Positions 6,924 through 25,047 of a DNA stretch of 64,000 bases are shown in pieces. The translations under genes were made by a program, and so were the position numbers. How positions within the stretch are numbered: the first letter of the stretch is position 1; each line of letters begins with the position of its first letter. The notes beneath the pieces were generated by a model, which saw nothing but the letters and a program-made list of their open reading frames with translations, did no database searches and was not told the DNA's origin. The stretch lies in the NCBI GenBank assembly GCA_913057515.1, contig CAJXOJ010000011.1, forward strand, positions 1-64,000, in the 5' to 3' direction. The DNA comes from an uncultured Cycloclasticus sp. (GTDB lineage Bacteria > Pseudomonadota > Gammaproteobacteria > Methylococcales > Cycloclasticaceae).

Positions 6924-6969
6924 CAGTTTCATGGAAGTGGACGGGTAAAATGCACCACTTAACTCGGTT

Positions 6970-8868
6970 CTAAGCGCTTTTTGGGTACCCCAGCGCCTTA
7001 AGGTTGTTGGTGATTTCGCCTAATGTGGTTGGGTCGTCTATTGTTGCAGGAACTTTGTGTTCCACTCCATCAGCCATGCTACGCATGGTGCCGCGCAGTA
7101 TTTTACCAGATCTTGTCTTAGGAAGGCGCTTAACAACGGTGGCTACCTTGAAGGCAGCGACGGGGCCAATTTTTTCGCGTATTAATGCGATGAGTTCTTT
7201 GGCGACATCATCATCATTTCGATGAGCGCCAGACTGTAAGACGGCAAAGCCTATAGGCGACTGTCCTTTGAGATTGTCGGCAACGCCAATGACAGCACAC
7301 TCTGCCACATCCGGATGCGAGGCAATGACCTCTTCCATTGCACCTGTCGATAATCGGTGTCCGGCGACATTAATCACGTCATCTGTACGGCCCATGATGT
7401 AAACATAGCCATCTTCATCTTGGTAGCCCGCATCGCCTGTTTCGTAATAGCCTTCAAACGTCTCAAGATAAGAACTTCTGAATCGCTGTTCGTTCTGCCA
7501 TAGTGTTGGGAATGTACCTGGTGGCAAAGGCAGTTTGATAGCAATTGCGCCCATTTCTCCCGCTGCAACAGCTTCTCCAGCGTCACCTAAGAACCGAACA
7601 TCGTAACCTGGTACAGGCTTTGTTGGTGAGCCGGGTTTAACCGGGAATTCCTCAAGCCCTAAGCAGTTTGATGCAATCGCCCAGCCAGTTTCAGTTTGCC
7701 ACCAATGGTCGACAACAGGTATTTGCAGATTATCTTGTGCCCAAAAGAGGGTGTCGGGGTCACAGCGTTCACCTGCTAAAAATAAAGCGCGCATGCAAGA
7801 TATGTCATATTTTTTAAGATGAAGGCAGTCAGGGTCTTCCTTTCTAATGGCTCTAAGAGCGGTAGGGGCGGTAAATAAGGAAGCAACTTTATGCTCTGAA
7901 ATAACACGCCAGAAGGCGCCTGGATCAGGTGTTCCAACAGGTTTGCCTTCGAAAATAACGGTTGTGGAGCCATTTAGTAACGGGCCGTAACAAATGTAAG
8001 AATGTCCAACAACCCAGCCTATATCGGATGCGGCCCAAAAGACTTCGCCTGGCTCGATATTATAGAGGTACTTCATGGTCCACATCATGGCAACGGCGTG
8101 GCCACCATTGTCACGTACGACGCCTTTGGGCTGTCCGGTAGTGCCAGAGGTGTAAAGAATATAGAGAGGGTCAGTTGCATCGACTGATACGCAATCTACC
8201 GGTGTGCTGTTTGCTATAGCTGTTGCCCAATCAACATCGCGACCGTCCTGCATCTCGGCTTGTTCTTGTGGGCGTTGCAATATGACGGTATATGCTGGTT
8301 TATGGTCCGATAATTCAATCGCGCCATCTAATAAGGGTTTGTACTTAATAACCCGTGAACCCTCAATGCCGCATGAGGCAGAGAGAATAACGTCGGGTTT
8401 TGCATCGTTAATACGGGTAGCTAGTTCATTAGCGGCAAAACCACCAAAAACTACTGAGTGAATCGCACCAATTCTTGCGCAGGCCAACATAGCCATAACG
8501 CCTTCAGGAATCATAGGCATGTAAACTAATACTCGGTCACCTTTTGTAACACCGAGGCTAGATAAAACACCGGCGAGCTTGGAGACTTCGTTCAGGAGTT
8601 CTTGGTAGCTATATGTTTTTTTAGTCCCTGTTACTGGGCTGTCATAAATTAACGCAGCTTGATCTGCGCGGCCATTTGCAACATGGCGGTCAATGGCGTT
8701 ATAGCAAGTATTTAATTTTGCACCTGCAAACCAACGATATTGGGGTGCTTGGGAATCGTCTAAGACGTTAGACCATGTTTGATCCCAGTCAATCGCTTCA
8801 GCTGCTTTTGCCCAAAAGTTTTCCGGCTGATCAAGTGATTGCTTGTATTGCTCTAAATATTGCCCCAT
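6970..8868 (-). CDS. prpE: PrpE, propionate-CoA ligase
   Basis: This 632-residue AMP-forming acyl-CoA synthetase belongs to the acetyl/propionyl-CoA synthetase family. Visible motifs are the nucleotide-binding P-loop YTSGTTGQPKGV, the WWQTETGW segment, and the C-terminal KTRSGKILRGT with the catalytic lysine that can be acetylated. It activates propionate to propionyl-CoA for PrpC. The upstream AGAGGA supports the ATG used. Placement directly before prpBC-acnD-prpF favours propionate over acetate as substrate, although acetate is often accepted. It follows the MBL-fold gene by about 70 bases and is probably cotranscribed with it. Confidence 0.93.
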   Translation of the reverse strand: MGQYLEQYKQSLDQPENFWAKAAEAIDWDQTWSNVLDDSQAPQYRWFAGAKLNTCYNAIDRHVANGRADQAALIYDSPVTGTKKTYSYQELLNEVSKLAGVLSSLGVTKGDRVLVYMPMIPEGVMAMLACARIGAIHSVVFGGFAANELATRINDAKPDVILSASCGIEGSRVIKYKPLLDGAIELSDHKPAYTVILQRPQEQAEMQDGRDVDWATAIANSTPVDCVSVDATDPLYILYTSGTTGQPKGVVRDNGGHAVAMMWTMKYLYNIEPGEVFWAASDIGWVVGHSYICYGPLLNGSTTVIFEGKPVGTPDPGAFWRVISEHKVASLFTAPTALRAIRKEDPDCLHLKKYDISCMRALFLAGERCDPDTLFWAQDNLQIPVVDHWWQTETGWAIASNCLGLEEFPVKPGSPTKPVPGYDVRFLGDAGEAVAAGEMGAIAIKLPLPPGTFPTLWQNEQRFRSSYLETFEGYYETGDAGYQDEDGYVYIMGRTDDVINVAGHRLSTGAMEEVIASHPDVAECAVIGVADNLKGQSPIGFAVLQSGAHRNDDDVAKELIALIREKIGPVAAFKVATVVKRLPKTRSGKILRGTMRSMADGVEHKVPATIDDPTTLGEITNNLKALGYPKSA

Positions 8869-22268: not shown

Positions 22269-23822
22269 TCAATCGAGGGCTTTAATCATGATCATTGAAC
22301 GGCGGGTTTGATTGTAGTGCGTGCGCTTTTCGTGCGGTAATTCTTCAAGTGTTGCCGGTAAAAAGCCTCTTTCAGCAAACCAGTGGCTGCTTTTTGTTGT
22401 TAGAACAAAAAGTTGGTTCAGTCCGATGGCGCGCGCTTTATTTTCAATCATGGTTAATAAGTACTCGCCACGTTCGCCATTACGGTAATTAGGGTGTACA
22501 GCAACACAGGCAAGCTCACCGATTTTTTGGTCTGGGTAGGTGTACAATGCGGCGCAGGTTGTGACTAGTCCATCTTGTTCAATCACATGAAATTTATCTA
22601 TATCCATTTCGATGGTTTCAGCAGATCGATAGGTAAGTAAGCCGCGTGCTTCTAAAGGTCTAATAAGTTCAATGATACCGTGTATGTCACTTATAGTTGC
22701 AGGGCGTGCATCTTCAAACGGTTGAATGCTGATCAAGGTGCCGCAGCCTTGACGAGTAAACAATTCTAATTGCAGACCACCGTTAATCTTTCTGTTGATA
22801 AGGTGAATGCGTTTTACGCCTAATTTGCTCGCACGAATCGCTTCTTGTAGGTGTAGGTAAGTATCATCTTGCTGGTCGTTAGAGTTTTCTAAAAGGTGTT
22901 GGGCCTGTTTCGTTGTTAACTGACGGATAAGGGCGTTTTTTTCGCTCAGCAGCTCTGTCCGTTCAGTCATTAAAATTAATTTATCAGCCCTTATCGCTGT
23001 AGCGATAGCGGTGGCTACTTCTTCGCTACGCAGGTTGAAGGTGTCGCCAGTCGGTGAATAACCGAGCGGGGATACAAGAATGATATGGCCCGCATCTAGG
23101 CTCTTGATCAGTCGTTCATCATTAACGCGGCGAACTTCCCCAGTATATTGGTAATCAACCCCATCAATAACACCGATCGGTTTTGCAACAATAAAGTTTC
23201 CAGAGGTTACGCTAATGCCTGATCTAGCGCCGGGCATGTTGACTAGGCTCGCCGATAATTCAGCTTCTATGTTCGTGCGAACAGTGCCGGATGCCTCCTT
23301 TGCCATGTTAAGTGTTTGTTTATCTGTTACGCGAAGGTGTTGGAAAACTTGGCTGGGGTGCCCGTTATCAGCTAATTTTTTCTCTAACTGTGGACGTATG
23401 CCGTGAACTAAAATGAGGCGTATACCTAGGCTACTAAGCAGGGTAAGATCCTTAATTAAACTTGAAAACAAGACGTCATTGACAGCATCACCACTAAAGT
23501 TGATAACAAACGTTTTACCGCGATGTGCGTGTATATAGGGGGTCGTATCCCTAAACCAATTAATGAATTGCTGCGAGTAGGCAAAGCTTCTCTCTAAAGA
23601 GTCAGCCTCTCGATAATGATCACTCTGCTGAAGCTCGATGTTTAAACGCTTAGCAGCATCGATAACTTTATTTAAGGCAGACGAGGGTATCAAGCCGCCA
23701 GTACCATTTTTGCTTTTAGGGTATGTCCAGCGATAAATGGTTGCTGGGTCCTTGTTGATGGCGTTGGCAAGTTTTTTTACACCGCCAAATTGACGAATTA
23801 TAGAGTGTGCATCATTGAGCAT
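22269..23822 (-). CDS. argA: ArgA, N-acetylglutamate synthase with N-terminal HTH-like domain
   Basis: The 517-residue protein is about 75 residues longer than classical ArgA. Residues 5-65 read as a Cro/YdaS-like helix-turn-helix (GGVKKLANAINKDPATIYRW). The kinase-like AAK domain begins near 78 and contains FVINFSGDAVND and ILVSPLGYSP. A GNAT acetyltransferase domain occupies about 370-515 with LACVAVHPNYRNGERGEYLL. It acetylates glutamate, the first step of arginine synthesis. No Met, GTG or TTG codon lies between the HTH and AAK parts, so the fusion must be translated as one chain. Tandem TTGCA palindromes precede the gene. The HTH part is my reading by eye. Confidence 0.9.
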   Translation of the reverse strand: MLNDAHSIIRQFGGVKKLANAINKDPATIYRWTYPKSKNGTGGLIPSSALNKVIDAAKRLNIELQQSDHYREADSLERSFAYSQQFINWFRDTTPYIHAHRGKTFVINFSGDAVNDVLFSSLIKDLTLLSSLGIRLILVHGIRPQLEKKLADNGHPSQVFQHLRVTDKQTLNMAKEASGTVRTNIEAELSASLVNMPGARSGISVTSGNFIVAKPIGVIDGVDYQYTGEVRRVNDERLIKSLDAGHIILVSPLGYSPTGDTFNLRSEEVATAIATAIRADKLILMTERTELLSEKNALIRQLTTKQAQHLLENSNDQQDDTYLHLQEAIRASKLGVKRIHLINRKINGGLQLELFTRQGCGTLISIQPFEDARPATISDIHGIIELIRPLEARGLLTYRSAETIEMDIDKFHVIEQDGLVTTCAALYTYPDQKIGELACVAVHPNYRNGERGEYLLTMIENKARAIGLNQLFVLTTKSSHWFAERGFLPATLEELPHEKRTHYNQTRRSMIMIKALD

Positions 23823-23841
23823 GACTAAGCGTAGCTCGAAA

Positions 23842-23929
23842 TTGCATAAAATGCAAATTTACAATTTATTTGGGCAGTTTATTTTAGTTTATGCAAATAT
23901 TTTGCACTAATTTTTGCAAAATATTGCAA
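23842..23929 (-). promoter_or_regulatory. Cluster of TTGCA palindromes upstream of argA
   Basis: There are three inverted repeats: TTGCATAAAATGCAA at 23842-23856, TGCAAATATTTTGCA at 23892-23906, and TTGCAA-AATA-TTGCAA at 23914-23929. The first lies 20-34 bases upstream of the argA start, and the others fall in the last codons of argE. They differ from the E. coli ARG box (TGAAT/ATTCA arms). They could be operators for the HTH domain of ArgA itself or for an ArgR-type repressor. Confidence 0.5.
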
Positions 23930-25047
23930 TAAGGTGTTATTTGGTTGCTAGCAATGTATTCGTTAGCTTGGTGTGCTTGGTTAATATTGCCTGGGCCGAT
24001 AACAATTGTATCAAGCCCTAGGCTATTAAGGTAAGGCGCTTCGGTGCCGAAGGCGACAGATTCGGATGCTTTACCACTAATTGACTCAACTAGTCGAGTG
24101 AGCCTTGCCTCAGCGGCTGTTTCGAATGCCGGTACGCCACAAAAAACAGGCTTGTAGGTCAATTGAAGTTTGCTCTGTTCAGGCAAAACGTGGCTTAGTC
24201 GTGTTTCTAGATCAGCTCTTAATGAATCGAGGTTCATGCCGGGTAGCGGACGGATATCTATTTGTGTTTCGCAGTGTGAGCAAATTCTATTGGGATTGTC
24301 TCCACCGTGAATTGAGCCAATGTTCATGGTGGGGAAAGGGACGTCAAAGACTGGATTTCGGTGTTTCCGTTGTATCTCATCGCGCCAATGTAGTAGTTCA
24401 TTGATGACTTTATGCATGCCTTCTGTTGCGCTAGCGCCAAGGCTTGGATTACTGGAGTGCCCAGCAATACCCGTAACGGTGAGTGATTCCATCATCACGC
24501 CTTTGTGCATACGAATAGGCGTTAGGCTAGTAGGTTCGCCAATGATAGCGTATTTGGCATGTTGTAGTTGTTGTTTGCTGAGTGCTTGCGCGCCACTCAT
24601 TGCGCTTTCTTCATCGGCGGTGGCCAAGATTGTCAGCGGTCGCTTAAAATCGCTCGCCTTAAATTGTTTTGCAACATCAATGGCCAGCGCGAAAAAAGAT
24701 TTCATATCCGTACTGCCTAGGCCGTAAAAGTTATTGTCTTTTTCGGTGAGTTTGAAAGGGTTTTGTTGCCATTGGCTGTCGTCGTAAGGCACCGTGTCGG
24801 TATGGCCCGACAGAACAAGGCCATCTGCGCCTTTATGCTTAGGGCCAATGGTGGCAATAAGGTTGGCTTTACCTGGTTGTCCTTGCAGTGGGTCGACGGT
24901 CACATCAAAGCCGATGTTTTCTAGCCAATCGGCTAACAGGTGAATGACGGGCAGATTGCCCTGGTCGAGTGAGTGGTTTGTGCTGCTGACCGATGGCGTG
25001 CCAATTAAGGCACGCATCATGTCAACTGTGTTAAGGGGTTTGATCAA
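23884..25047 (-). CDS. argE: ArgE, acetylornithine deacetylase
   Basis: The 387-residue protein of the M20/DapE-ArgE metallopeptidase family has metal and catalytic segments LSGHTDTVPYD, STDMKSFFAL, TADEESAMSG and GEPTSL, and a C-terminal histidine in NQAHQANEYI. It removes the acetyl group from N-acetylornithine to give ornithine. It sits between ilvD and argA, and its 3' end carries part of the TTGCA palindrome cluster. The presence of ArgE with an N-acetylglutamate synthase indicates the linear arginine route. Confidence 0.95.
   Translation of the reverse strand: MIKPLNTVDMMRALIGTPSVSSTNHSLDQGNLPVIHLLADWLENIGFDVTVDPLQGQPGKANLIATIGPKHKGADGLVLSGHTDTVPYDDSQWQQNPFKLTEKDNNFYGLGSTDMKSFFALAIDVAKQFKASDFKRPLTILATADEESAMSGAQALSKQQLQHAKYAIIGEPTSLTPIRMHKGVMMESLTVTGIAGHSSNPSLGASATEGMHKVINELLHWRDEIQRKHRNPVFDVPFPTMNIGSIHGGDNPNRICSHCETQIDIRPLPGMNLDSLRADLETRLSHVLPEQSKLQLTYKPVFCGVPAFETAAEARLTRLVESISGKASESVAFGTEAPYLNSLGLDTIVIGPGNINQAHQANEYIASNQITPYCNILQKLVQNICIN

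Follow-up and report, generated by a model that had tools for sequence, protein, structure and literature searches.

The window, the whole 64,000-nucleotide stretch of Cycloclasticus DNA analyzed here, encodes on its minus strand (22269..23822) a protein of 517 amino acids with an ATG start, in which a Cro-type helix-turn-helix (HTH) domain is fused to N-acetylglutamate synthase (NAGS, ArgA). Residues 1–66 (23625..23822, minus strand) form a Cro/carph-isopro-type HTH with the recognition-helix region KDPATIYRWTYPK, assigned by NF046037, AlphaFold, and Foldseek. A hypervariable flexible linker follows (residues 67–84; 23571..23624, minus strand), delimited by pLDDT, invariant columns, and dN/dS. 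The amino-acid-kinase-like (AAK) domain (residues 85–365; 22728..23570, minus strand) is placed by PF00696, the structural model, and the alignment with 2r8v, and opens with an N-terminal helix that spans residues 83–99 in the AlphaFold model. It contains the arginine-binding motif ELFTRQGCGT (residues 353–362; 22737..22766, minus strand), identified after a motif given in a passage of PMC4490483. The GNAT N-acetyltransferase (NAT) domain occupies residues 366–517 (22272..22727, minus strand; PF00583, PF13508, 2r8v alignment). Upstream of argA lies argE, encoding acetylornithine deacetylase (23884..25047, minus strand; PRK05111, 520.8 bits, cut-off 460).

Residues 83–516 score 597.6 bits with NCBIfam PRK05279 (amino-acid N-acetyltransferase; cut-off 344), as expected of an equivalog, and the alignment with NAGS of Neisseria gonorrhoeae (2r8v, 314.7 bits) begins at the AAK part. 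AAK and NAT domains are both present (PF00696; PF00583/PF13508; 2r8v), which bears out the complete kinase-like and GNAT synthase that a preliminary description had read behind the HTH. The same description called the fusion obligatory for want of a start codon between the two parts. In the window, the only start-type codon between the initial ATG and the core motif near residue 100 is a TTG at codon 44, inside the HTH; among the other 15 sequences, GTG, TTG, and ATG codons are scattered in some, with a GTG between residues 66 and 90 in three, and none is conserved. Since there is no conserved internal start, the fusion is obligatory as far as can be read from the DNA, and the earlier claim holds with the codon-44 TTG added to it. 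The open reading frame is confirmed at the sequence level as a complete NAGS (residues 83–517) behind a phage Cro-type HTH (residues 1–65) and a variable linker.

Fold, selection, and distribution of the HTH domain

The preliminary description had likened the first ~65 residues to a Cro-type HTH, and profile, model, and structure searches agree with it. NF046037 (carph-isopro) matches residues 6–65 with 41.9 bits when residues 1–81 are searched alone and with 36.0 bits in the whole protein (cut-off 38). In the genome search, seven of 12 fusions of the genus exceed this cut-off, five of these only if neighboring stretches are counted. P22_Cro (PF14549) reaches 22.9 bits on the HTH fragment, below its gathering cut-off of 30.2, and we therefore speak of a Cro-like fold and not of a PF14549 member. 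In the phage collection, nine records match residues 1–81, several of them annotated as Cro or Cro-like; the best is the Cro-like protein of Paracoccus phage vB_PbeS_Pben1 (E 4e-6).

AlphaFold, run on the aligned first 100 residues, places helices at residues 5–12, 15–21, 26–31, and 47–59, with block-mean pLDDT of 86–94 over residues 1–60. The full-length model has nearly the same HTH helices (pLDDT 77–87) and predicts the linker to be disordered (pLDDT below 50 at residues 67–87). Foldseek ranks 1–7 are all Cro proteins, namely Xfaso 1 Cro, N15 Cro with and without DNA, and one Xfaso 1/Pfl 6 hybrid, at probabilities of 0.80–0.99; Xfaso 1 Cro leads (0.99), N15 Cro on operator DNA reaches 0.96, and P22 Cro stands at rank 14 (probability 0.77, TM 0.69 by target length). 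No match attains E 0.001, the best being E 0.19. As these E-values are not significant by themselves, the call rests on model, probability, and sequence together, and the domain is predicted to adopt a Cro-like fold. A prediction without an HTH fold had been set beforehand as the result that would count against the fusion; AlphaFold yields the fold and Cro proteins head the Foldseek ranking.

The HTH is under purifying selection. In the alignment of 16 sequences, HTH residues 1–65 contain 26 invariant columns and linker residues 66–84 none. Among eight chosen pairs, dN/dS is 0.04–0.15 for the HTH (six pairs; dS is saturated in the other two) and 0.27–1.40 for the linker (seven pairs). The recognition helix is nearly invariant and belongs to the best conserved parts of the fusion protein.

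A search for the fusion across relatives, suggested at the outset, finds it in 16 of 16 complete argA genes of Cycloclasticus, at 61–86% identity to the window protein. A seventeenth gene of the genus (G002) is cut off by a contig end after residue 51 but still shows the operator, and a further genus genome (G010, 83% complete) yielded no argA. Its presence in all complete genus genes means that the fusion is not an artefact of one assembly. Among 61 relatives searched, 16 genomes (window included) align from about residue 1, and in 42 of 42 unfused genomes of other families the ArgA match starts at window residue 47–85. In the order sample (311 genomes), the HTH region occurs only in 17 genomes of the genus and ten others match the shared ArgA part only; in the class sample (369 genomes), it occurs in two, both of the genus, and seven match the shared ArgA part only. 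The HTH on ArgA is thus a genus-wide trait, seen nowhere else in the order and class samples. In the genome collection, thirteen named loci contain the HTH region; they are labeled Cycloclasticus (10, mussel and sponge symbionts among them), Piscirickettsiaceae (two), and Methylococcaceae (one).

A search of 22 genomes, 17 from the genus, gave no ArgR (PF01316) match; its control was positive in nine of 14. A separate stand-alone HTH paralogue as the true operator binder was considered and rejected: in 12 of 13 genus genomes, the NF046037 match is the ArgA match. G007 alone has a weak second match (E 0.0027) beside its ArgA match, and G010, the genome without argA, has no NF046037 match.

The palindrome at the argA promoter

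Reading the 16 argA upstream regions revealed a palindrome, TTGCRW5YGCAA (pattern TTGCRWWWWWYGCAA). In the window, this predicted operator, TTGCATTTTATGCAA as read on the minus strand, occupies 23842..23856 (no strand assigned), 19 bp upstream of the ATG and within the fragment 23830–23935 that had been proposed as the target. An exact copy of the palindrome lies no more than ~35 bp from the ATG in 14 of 17 argA-bearing genus genomes; two of the remaining three genes have one mismatch and one has a 16-bp version. Within one mismatch, it is found in the 100 bp upstream of 15 of 16 loci (0.375 expected from dinucleotide shuffles), a partly circular comparison since the 15-mer was defined on ArgA upstream regions. 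None of 14 unfused argA upstream regions, taken from 42 unfused genomes, carries it (0.005 expected), and the lower A+T content of these regions makes chance matches rarer there too. The HTH-PyrB genes and the stand-alone cro relatives described below provide tests that are independent of the ArgA loci.

Across 18 genus genomes, the pattern has 37 sites (one strand) versus 23 for the reversed-pattern control. Fourteen of these sites immediately precede argA, which leaves 23, the same number as in the control; the window's own genome has no site besides the one before argA. Five genomes of other families have none. As the genome-wide surplus over the control corresponds to the 14 argA sites, the distribution argues for autoregulation rather than a regulon, and judging from these sites HTH-ArgA probably controls its own gene. 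A regulon governed by HTH-ArgA was rejected because the non-argA sites do not rise above background (23 versus 23).

The first six bases of the palindrome (TTGCRT) coincide with the predicted −35 box, which it contains in 13 of 16 Cycloclasticus loci. At 13 of 16 loci, a −10-like box follows the −35 box by 15–18 bp and stops 5–8 bp short of the ATG; L012 and L013 do not fit this promoter layout. The −10 boxes, picked by script as the best of five spacer lengths, share 3–6 of 6 bases with the consensus. The window's box, TACGCT (23828..23833, minus strand), which ends 5 bp before the ATG, is a weak one (3/6), and most relatives have 4–6 of 6. The argA mRNA is predicted from this arrangement to be near-leaderless. 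Given that the palindrome lies over the −35 box, a bound dimer would cover the promoter.

Eleven of 16 argA upstream regions contain additional dyads with N7 or N8 spacers, located in the 3′ end of argE in 10 cases. In the window, such a TTGC-N8-GCAA dyad, TTGCAATATTTTGCAA (23914..23929, no strand assigned), with a spacer one base longer than that of the main palindrome, lies 73 bp upstream of the latter. The DNA of the argE-end dyads also codes for PYCNFLQ-like residues, so that the dyads are inseparable from coding constraint. Among 14 loci scanned, exact operator-like sites upstream of argE are present in L049 and L050 (1.30–1.34 kb upstream of the argA ATG) and a one-mismatch site in L058, suggesting that argE may be co-controlled in some species.

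These data also bear on a second objection raised beforehand, namely that ordinary ArgA orthologues of the lineage might carry the same stretch in a role other than DNA binding. Its first half applies, as all orthologues of the genus carry the stretch. Its second half is disfavored: the Cro-like fold, the nearly invariant recognition helix, and the promoter palindrome together favor a DNA-binding role.

The same domain at other enzymes and in phages

We searched the HTH alignment against 385 genomes of another class, 20 of which have a match at E 1e-5. Its size, together with relatives of the domain from Paracoccus and Rhizobium, makes Alphaproteobacteria the probable identity of this class. 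The search returned five open frames of 386–396 amino acids, four joining the HTH to acetylglutamate kinase (argB, 248–257 bits, cut-off 151) and one joining it to aspartate carbamoyltransferase (408.5 bits, cut-off 263). HTH-ArgB is present in all four genomes of its order sample (L095–L098; L111 duplicates L097 and is left out of the count), and HTH-PyrB in three of 11 of a second order (L094, L112, L113), the two further proteins scoring 398.7 and 404.3 bits. Against the NF046037 cut-off of 38, the HTH-PyrB proteins score 38.9, 40.9, and 34.3 bits, and the HTH-ArgB proteins 30.4–34.9 bits.

With the pattern fixed beforehand, the exact 15-mer is found at −57 to −59 in all three HTH-PyrB genes (0.014 expected from shuffles), ahead of a TTGAAG in two of them. 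These three genomes contain two, one, and two exact sites in total. Six of the eight sibling genomes without HTH-PyrB were scanned and have one site between them, five of the six having none. At HTH-ArgB, the motif occurs within one mismatch in one of four genes. In the other three, the TTGCR half-site gives way to TTACT-type dyads, which share the 15-bp geometry and the two positions; the recognition helices of these three proteins closely resemble that of the fourth. No exact site is found at argB in the four HTH-ArgB genomes, whose one exact site lies elsewhere; the pattern TTRCN7GYAA, which fits the HTH-ArgB dyads, was chosen after seeing those sites.

Paracoccus phage Pben1 and the Rhizobium plasmid pPR6 encode Cro-like proteins whose recognition helix is followed by the same extended loop (RW..PK..GG..G.IP). 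GCRW5YGC occurs five times in the 39.9 kb of Pben1; two of these sites immediately precede cro and fall within the 5′ end annotated for the divergent cI-like gene. The 18.5 kb of pPR6 contain three, one of which is 22 bp before the cro-like gene. Among seven stand-alone cro relatives, four have GCRWWNWWYGC within 160 bp upstream (0.34 expected) and three have no core site in that range. This count excludes the short-loop relatives L075, L077, L078, L079, and L083, the Pben1 prophage copy L082, the weak or partial matches L089 and L101, and the phage matches H3 and H7–H9. In the short-loop relatives, no GCRW5YGC was seen beside cro; L077 and L083 have differently spaced GCGC dyads, as judged by eye. 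Viral contigs gave 41 pattern matches, none of which was confirmed.

In all four HTH-ArgB genes, a TTGA-type −35 box at −34 is flanked by dyads that start at −58 and −24. At Pben1 cro, TTGACA lies between two sites 34 bp apart, and in the cro relative of G1344 TTGACC is enclosed by dyads at −58 and −25. The site at −57 to −59 is retained at HTH-PyrB; G753 has the proximal site only, as does pPR6 by the layout criterion used. The Cycloclasticus layout differs in having a single palindrome over the −35 box, to which some loci add the coding-overlapped second dyad or a site upstream of argE. We read the shared cro-like layout of dyads and −35 box as capture of a whole cro promoter-operator-HTH unit before an enzyme gene. 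The HTH tree groups the ArgB and PyrB domains by enzyme, with weak support (12 of 20 inner branches open), and resolves no order of captures.

Some further observations were made among these records. Pben1 (L080) has a second pair of sites at 6946–6994, about 1 kb from cro and with the same 34-bp distance; it falls in the gap between two small genes and suggests a further controlled promoter. The 39-kb phage record PQ492659.1 (L078), which contains a cro-like gene, is labeled Inoviridae, seemingly misplaced for its size. A shorter-loop form of the domain (STVQGWK type) heads frames of 430–741 amino acids with a low-complexity or coiled-coil look (L088, L102, L103), which may be mitofilin-like (COG4223); similar matches occur in further long frames (L104–L110, L114–L116).

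Mechanistic readings and relation to known systems

HTH-ArgA combines an enzyme domain and a predicted DNA-binding domain in one chain, as a trigger enzyme with a fused DNA-binding domain should, and the conserved palindrome at its promoter is indirect evidence that it binds at its own gene. We consider it probable that HTH-ArgA is such an enzyme, a NAGS with its own Cro-derived repressor domain coupled to arginine. According to passages of PMC4490483, the K1–K4 interface of the NAGS hexamer is built from interlacing N-terminal helices with two-fold symmetry, arginine sits by the N-terminal helix at E-(L/I)-(F/M)-(T/S)-x-x-G-x-G-T, and its binding shifts this helix and expands the ring by ~10 Å. 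HTH-ArgA is assumed, by analogy with these relatives, to form a hexamer as well. In the model, the HTH of the window protein is tethered to N-terminal helix 83–99. The two-fold interface of adjoining N-terminal helices would hold the HTHs in pairs, and the paired HTHs would bind TTGCRW5YGCAA over the −35 box, so that bound HTH-ArgA would block transcription of argA. Arginine would probably alter the fit of the HTH pair on the operator and in this way link the feedback inhibition of HTH-ArgA with repression of argA. This effect is proposed because the AAK ring keeps the arginine motif, which is intact in 16 of 16 complete HTH-ArgA and four of four HTH-ArgB proteins, and because arginine moves, in N. 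gonorrhoeae NAGS, the helix to which the HTH is tethered here. The direction of the effect, with arginine as a co-repressor, is a guess, and the long linker may weaken the coupling. Operator binding, repression, arginine as the ligand, and the near-leaderless transcript are what we infer from genes, sites, and models.

ArgA, ArgB, and PyrB are early, feedback-controlled enzymes of their pathways. Taken together, the data are best read as a domesticated Cro promoter-operator-HTH cassette that would make feedback-regulated enzymes self-repressing. We lean slightly toward the broader proposal that the cro cassette of promoter, operators, and HTH was captured at least three times, before ArgA, ArgB, and PyrB, each time turning the enzyme into a self-repressor that senses its end product without a separate regulator.

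The role of arginine is what separates the trigger-enzyme reading from a possible, if rather unlikely, alternative, in which the HTH would autoregulate by enzyme abundance alone, as phage Cro does, and act as a homeostat that keeps argA low and steady. The stand-alone relatives are indeed small proteins without a ligand domain, the HTH-ArgB layout is that of phage cro, and a long, unconserved linker with predicted disorder argues against tight coupling to the ring; however, the recipients of the domain are three early, feedback-controlled enzymes, and the arginine motif has stayed intact throughout HTH-ArgA and HTH-ArgB. Some Cro/CI-type proteins act as activators, and the palindrome of HTH-PyrB, which at −57 to −59 precedes a −35-like box in two of the three genes, would suit a domain that recruits RNA polymerase to the argA promoter. 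Such activation is nevertheless improbable, as a protein bound to a palindrome with the −35 box inside it, the situation at 13 of 16 Cycloclasticus loci, should exclude the polymerase, and at HTH-ArgB another dyad follows the −35 box.

We give a similarly low probability to the idea that the palindrome serves another regulator and that the fused HTH is a relic or a module for oligomerization or targeting. Binding by the HTH is predicted from sequence, and 23 further sites exist elsewhere in the genus genomes, but this number is the control count. Moreover, the same palindrome accompanies the same HTH before PyrB in another class and its core is found at phage cro, whereas the 14 unfused argA upstream regions and five of the six scanned siblings without HTH-PyrB lack it; the recognition helix is among the best conserved parts. 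Ordinary descent of a harmless, functionless N-terminal extension would fit the confinement of the HTH, on ArgA, to one genus. It is highly improbable in view of dN/dS values well below 1 in the HTH and much higher ones in the adjacent linker, and of the separate HTH fusions on two other enzymes. We thus retain the self-repressing trigger enzyme as the preferred reading of HTH-ArgA.

If this reading is true, a single protein links allosteric feedback to repression of its gene in bacteria without a detected ArgR, and a phage switch domain can move together with its operator onto unrelated enzymes under feedback control, which would be an instance of phage gene domestication. The 15-bp TTGCRW5YGCAA at its stated place is an operator prediction ready for testing, and the protein a possible one-component switch responsive to arginine or, for PyrB, pyrimidines. 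The reading also offers a function for the carph-isopro domain; NF046037, matched by the HTH of ArgA, is an entry for the bare domain in which we saw no operator or function, and no paper under the carph-isopro name was found in the open-licence literature. In the same literature, with broad queries covering the top-ranked matches, we found no report of NAGS, NAGK, or ATCase carrying a fused DNA-binding domain, in keeping with the earlier remark that no described case was known.

Among the known systems, ArgR/AhrC would share with HTH-ArgA the job of arginine-linked control of arg genes; it is an unrelated protein, and the 17 genus genomes have no PF01316 match. ArgA of N. gonorrhoeae has the AAK and NAT domains and the arginine motif in common with HTH-ArgA but no HTH domain. 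With the Cro proteins of Xfaso 1, N15, P22, and Pben1, the HTH shares predicted fold and sequence relatedness, and the core GCRW5YGC adjoins the Pben1 Cro-like gene as the palindrome does at argA; phage Cros, however, are small stand-alone proteins of the lysogeny switch, whereas the Cycloclasticus domain is attached to an enzyme. Passages of PMC8249747 and PMC6245113 name BirA, NadR, PepA, PutA, and PyrH as trigger enzymes of Escherichia coli that bind DNA. Like the predicted HTH-ArgA, PutA, BirA, and NadR are metabolic enzymes that double as DNA-binding regulators, and PutA is described as binding only the putA-putP spacer, that is, its own promoter region (passages of PMC8249747). Unlike PutA, HTH-ArgA opens a biosynthetic pathway and has a Cro-like domain, and the same domain and palindrome are found at another enzyme. 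PutA itself is catabolic and has another DNA-binding fold. Trigger enzymes as such are thus already known, and the unusual feature here is the portable unit of palindrome and domain.
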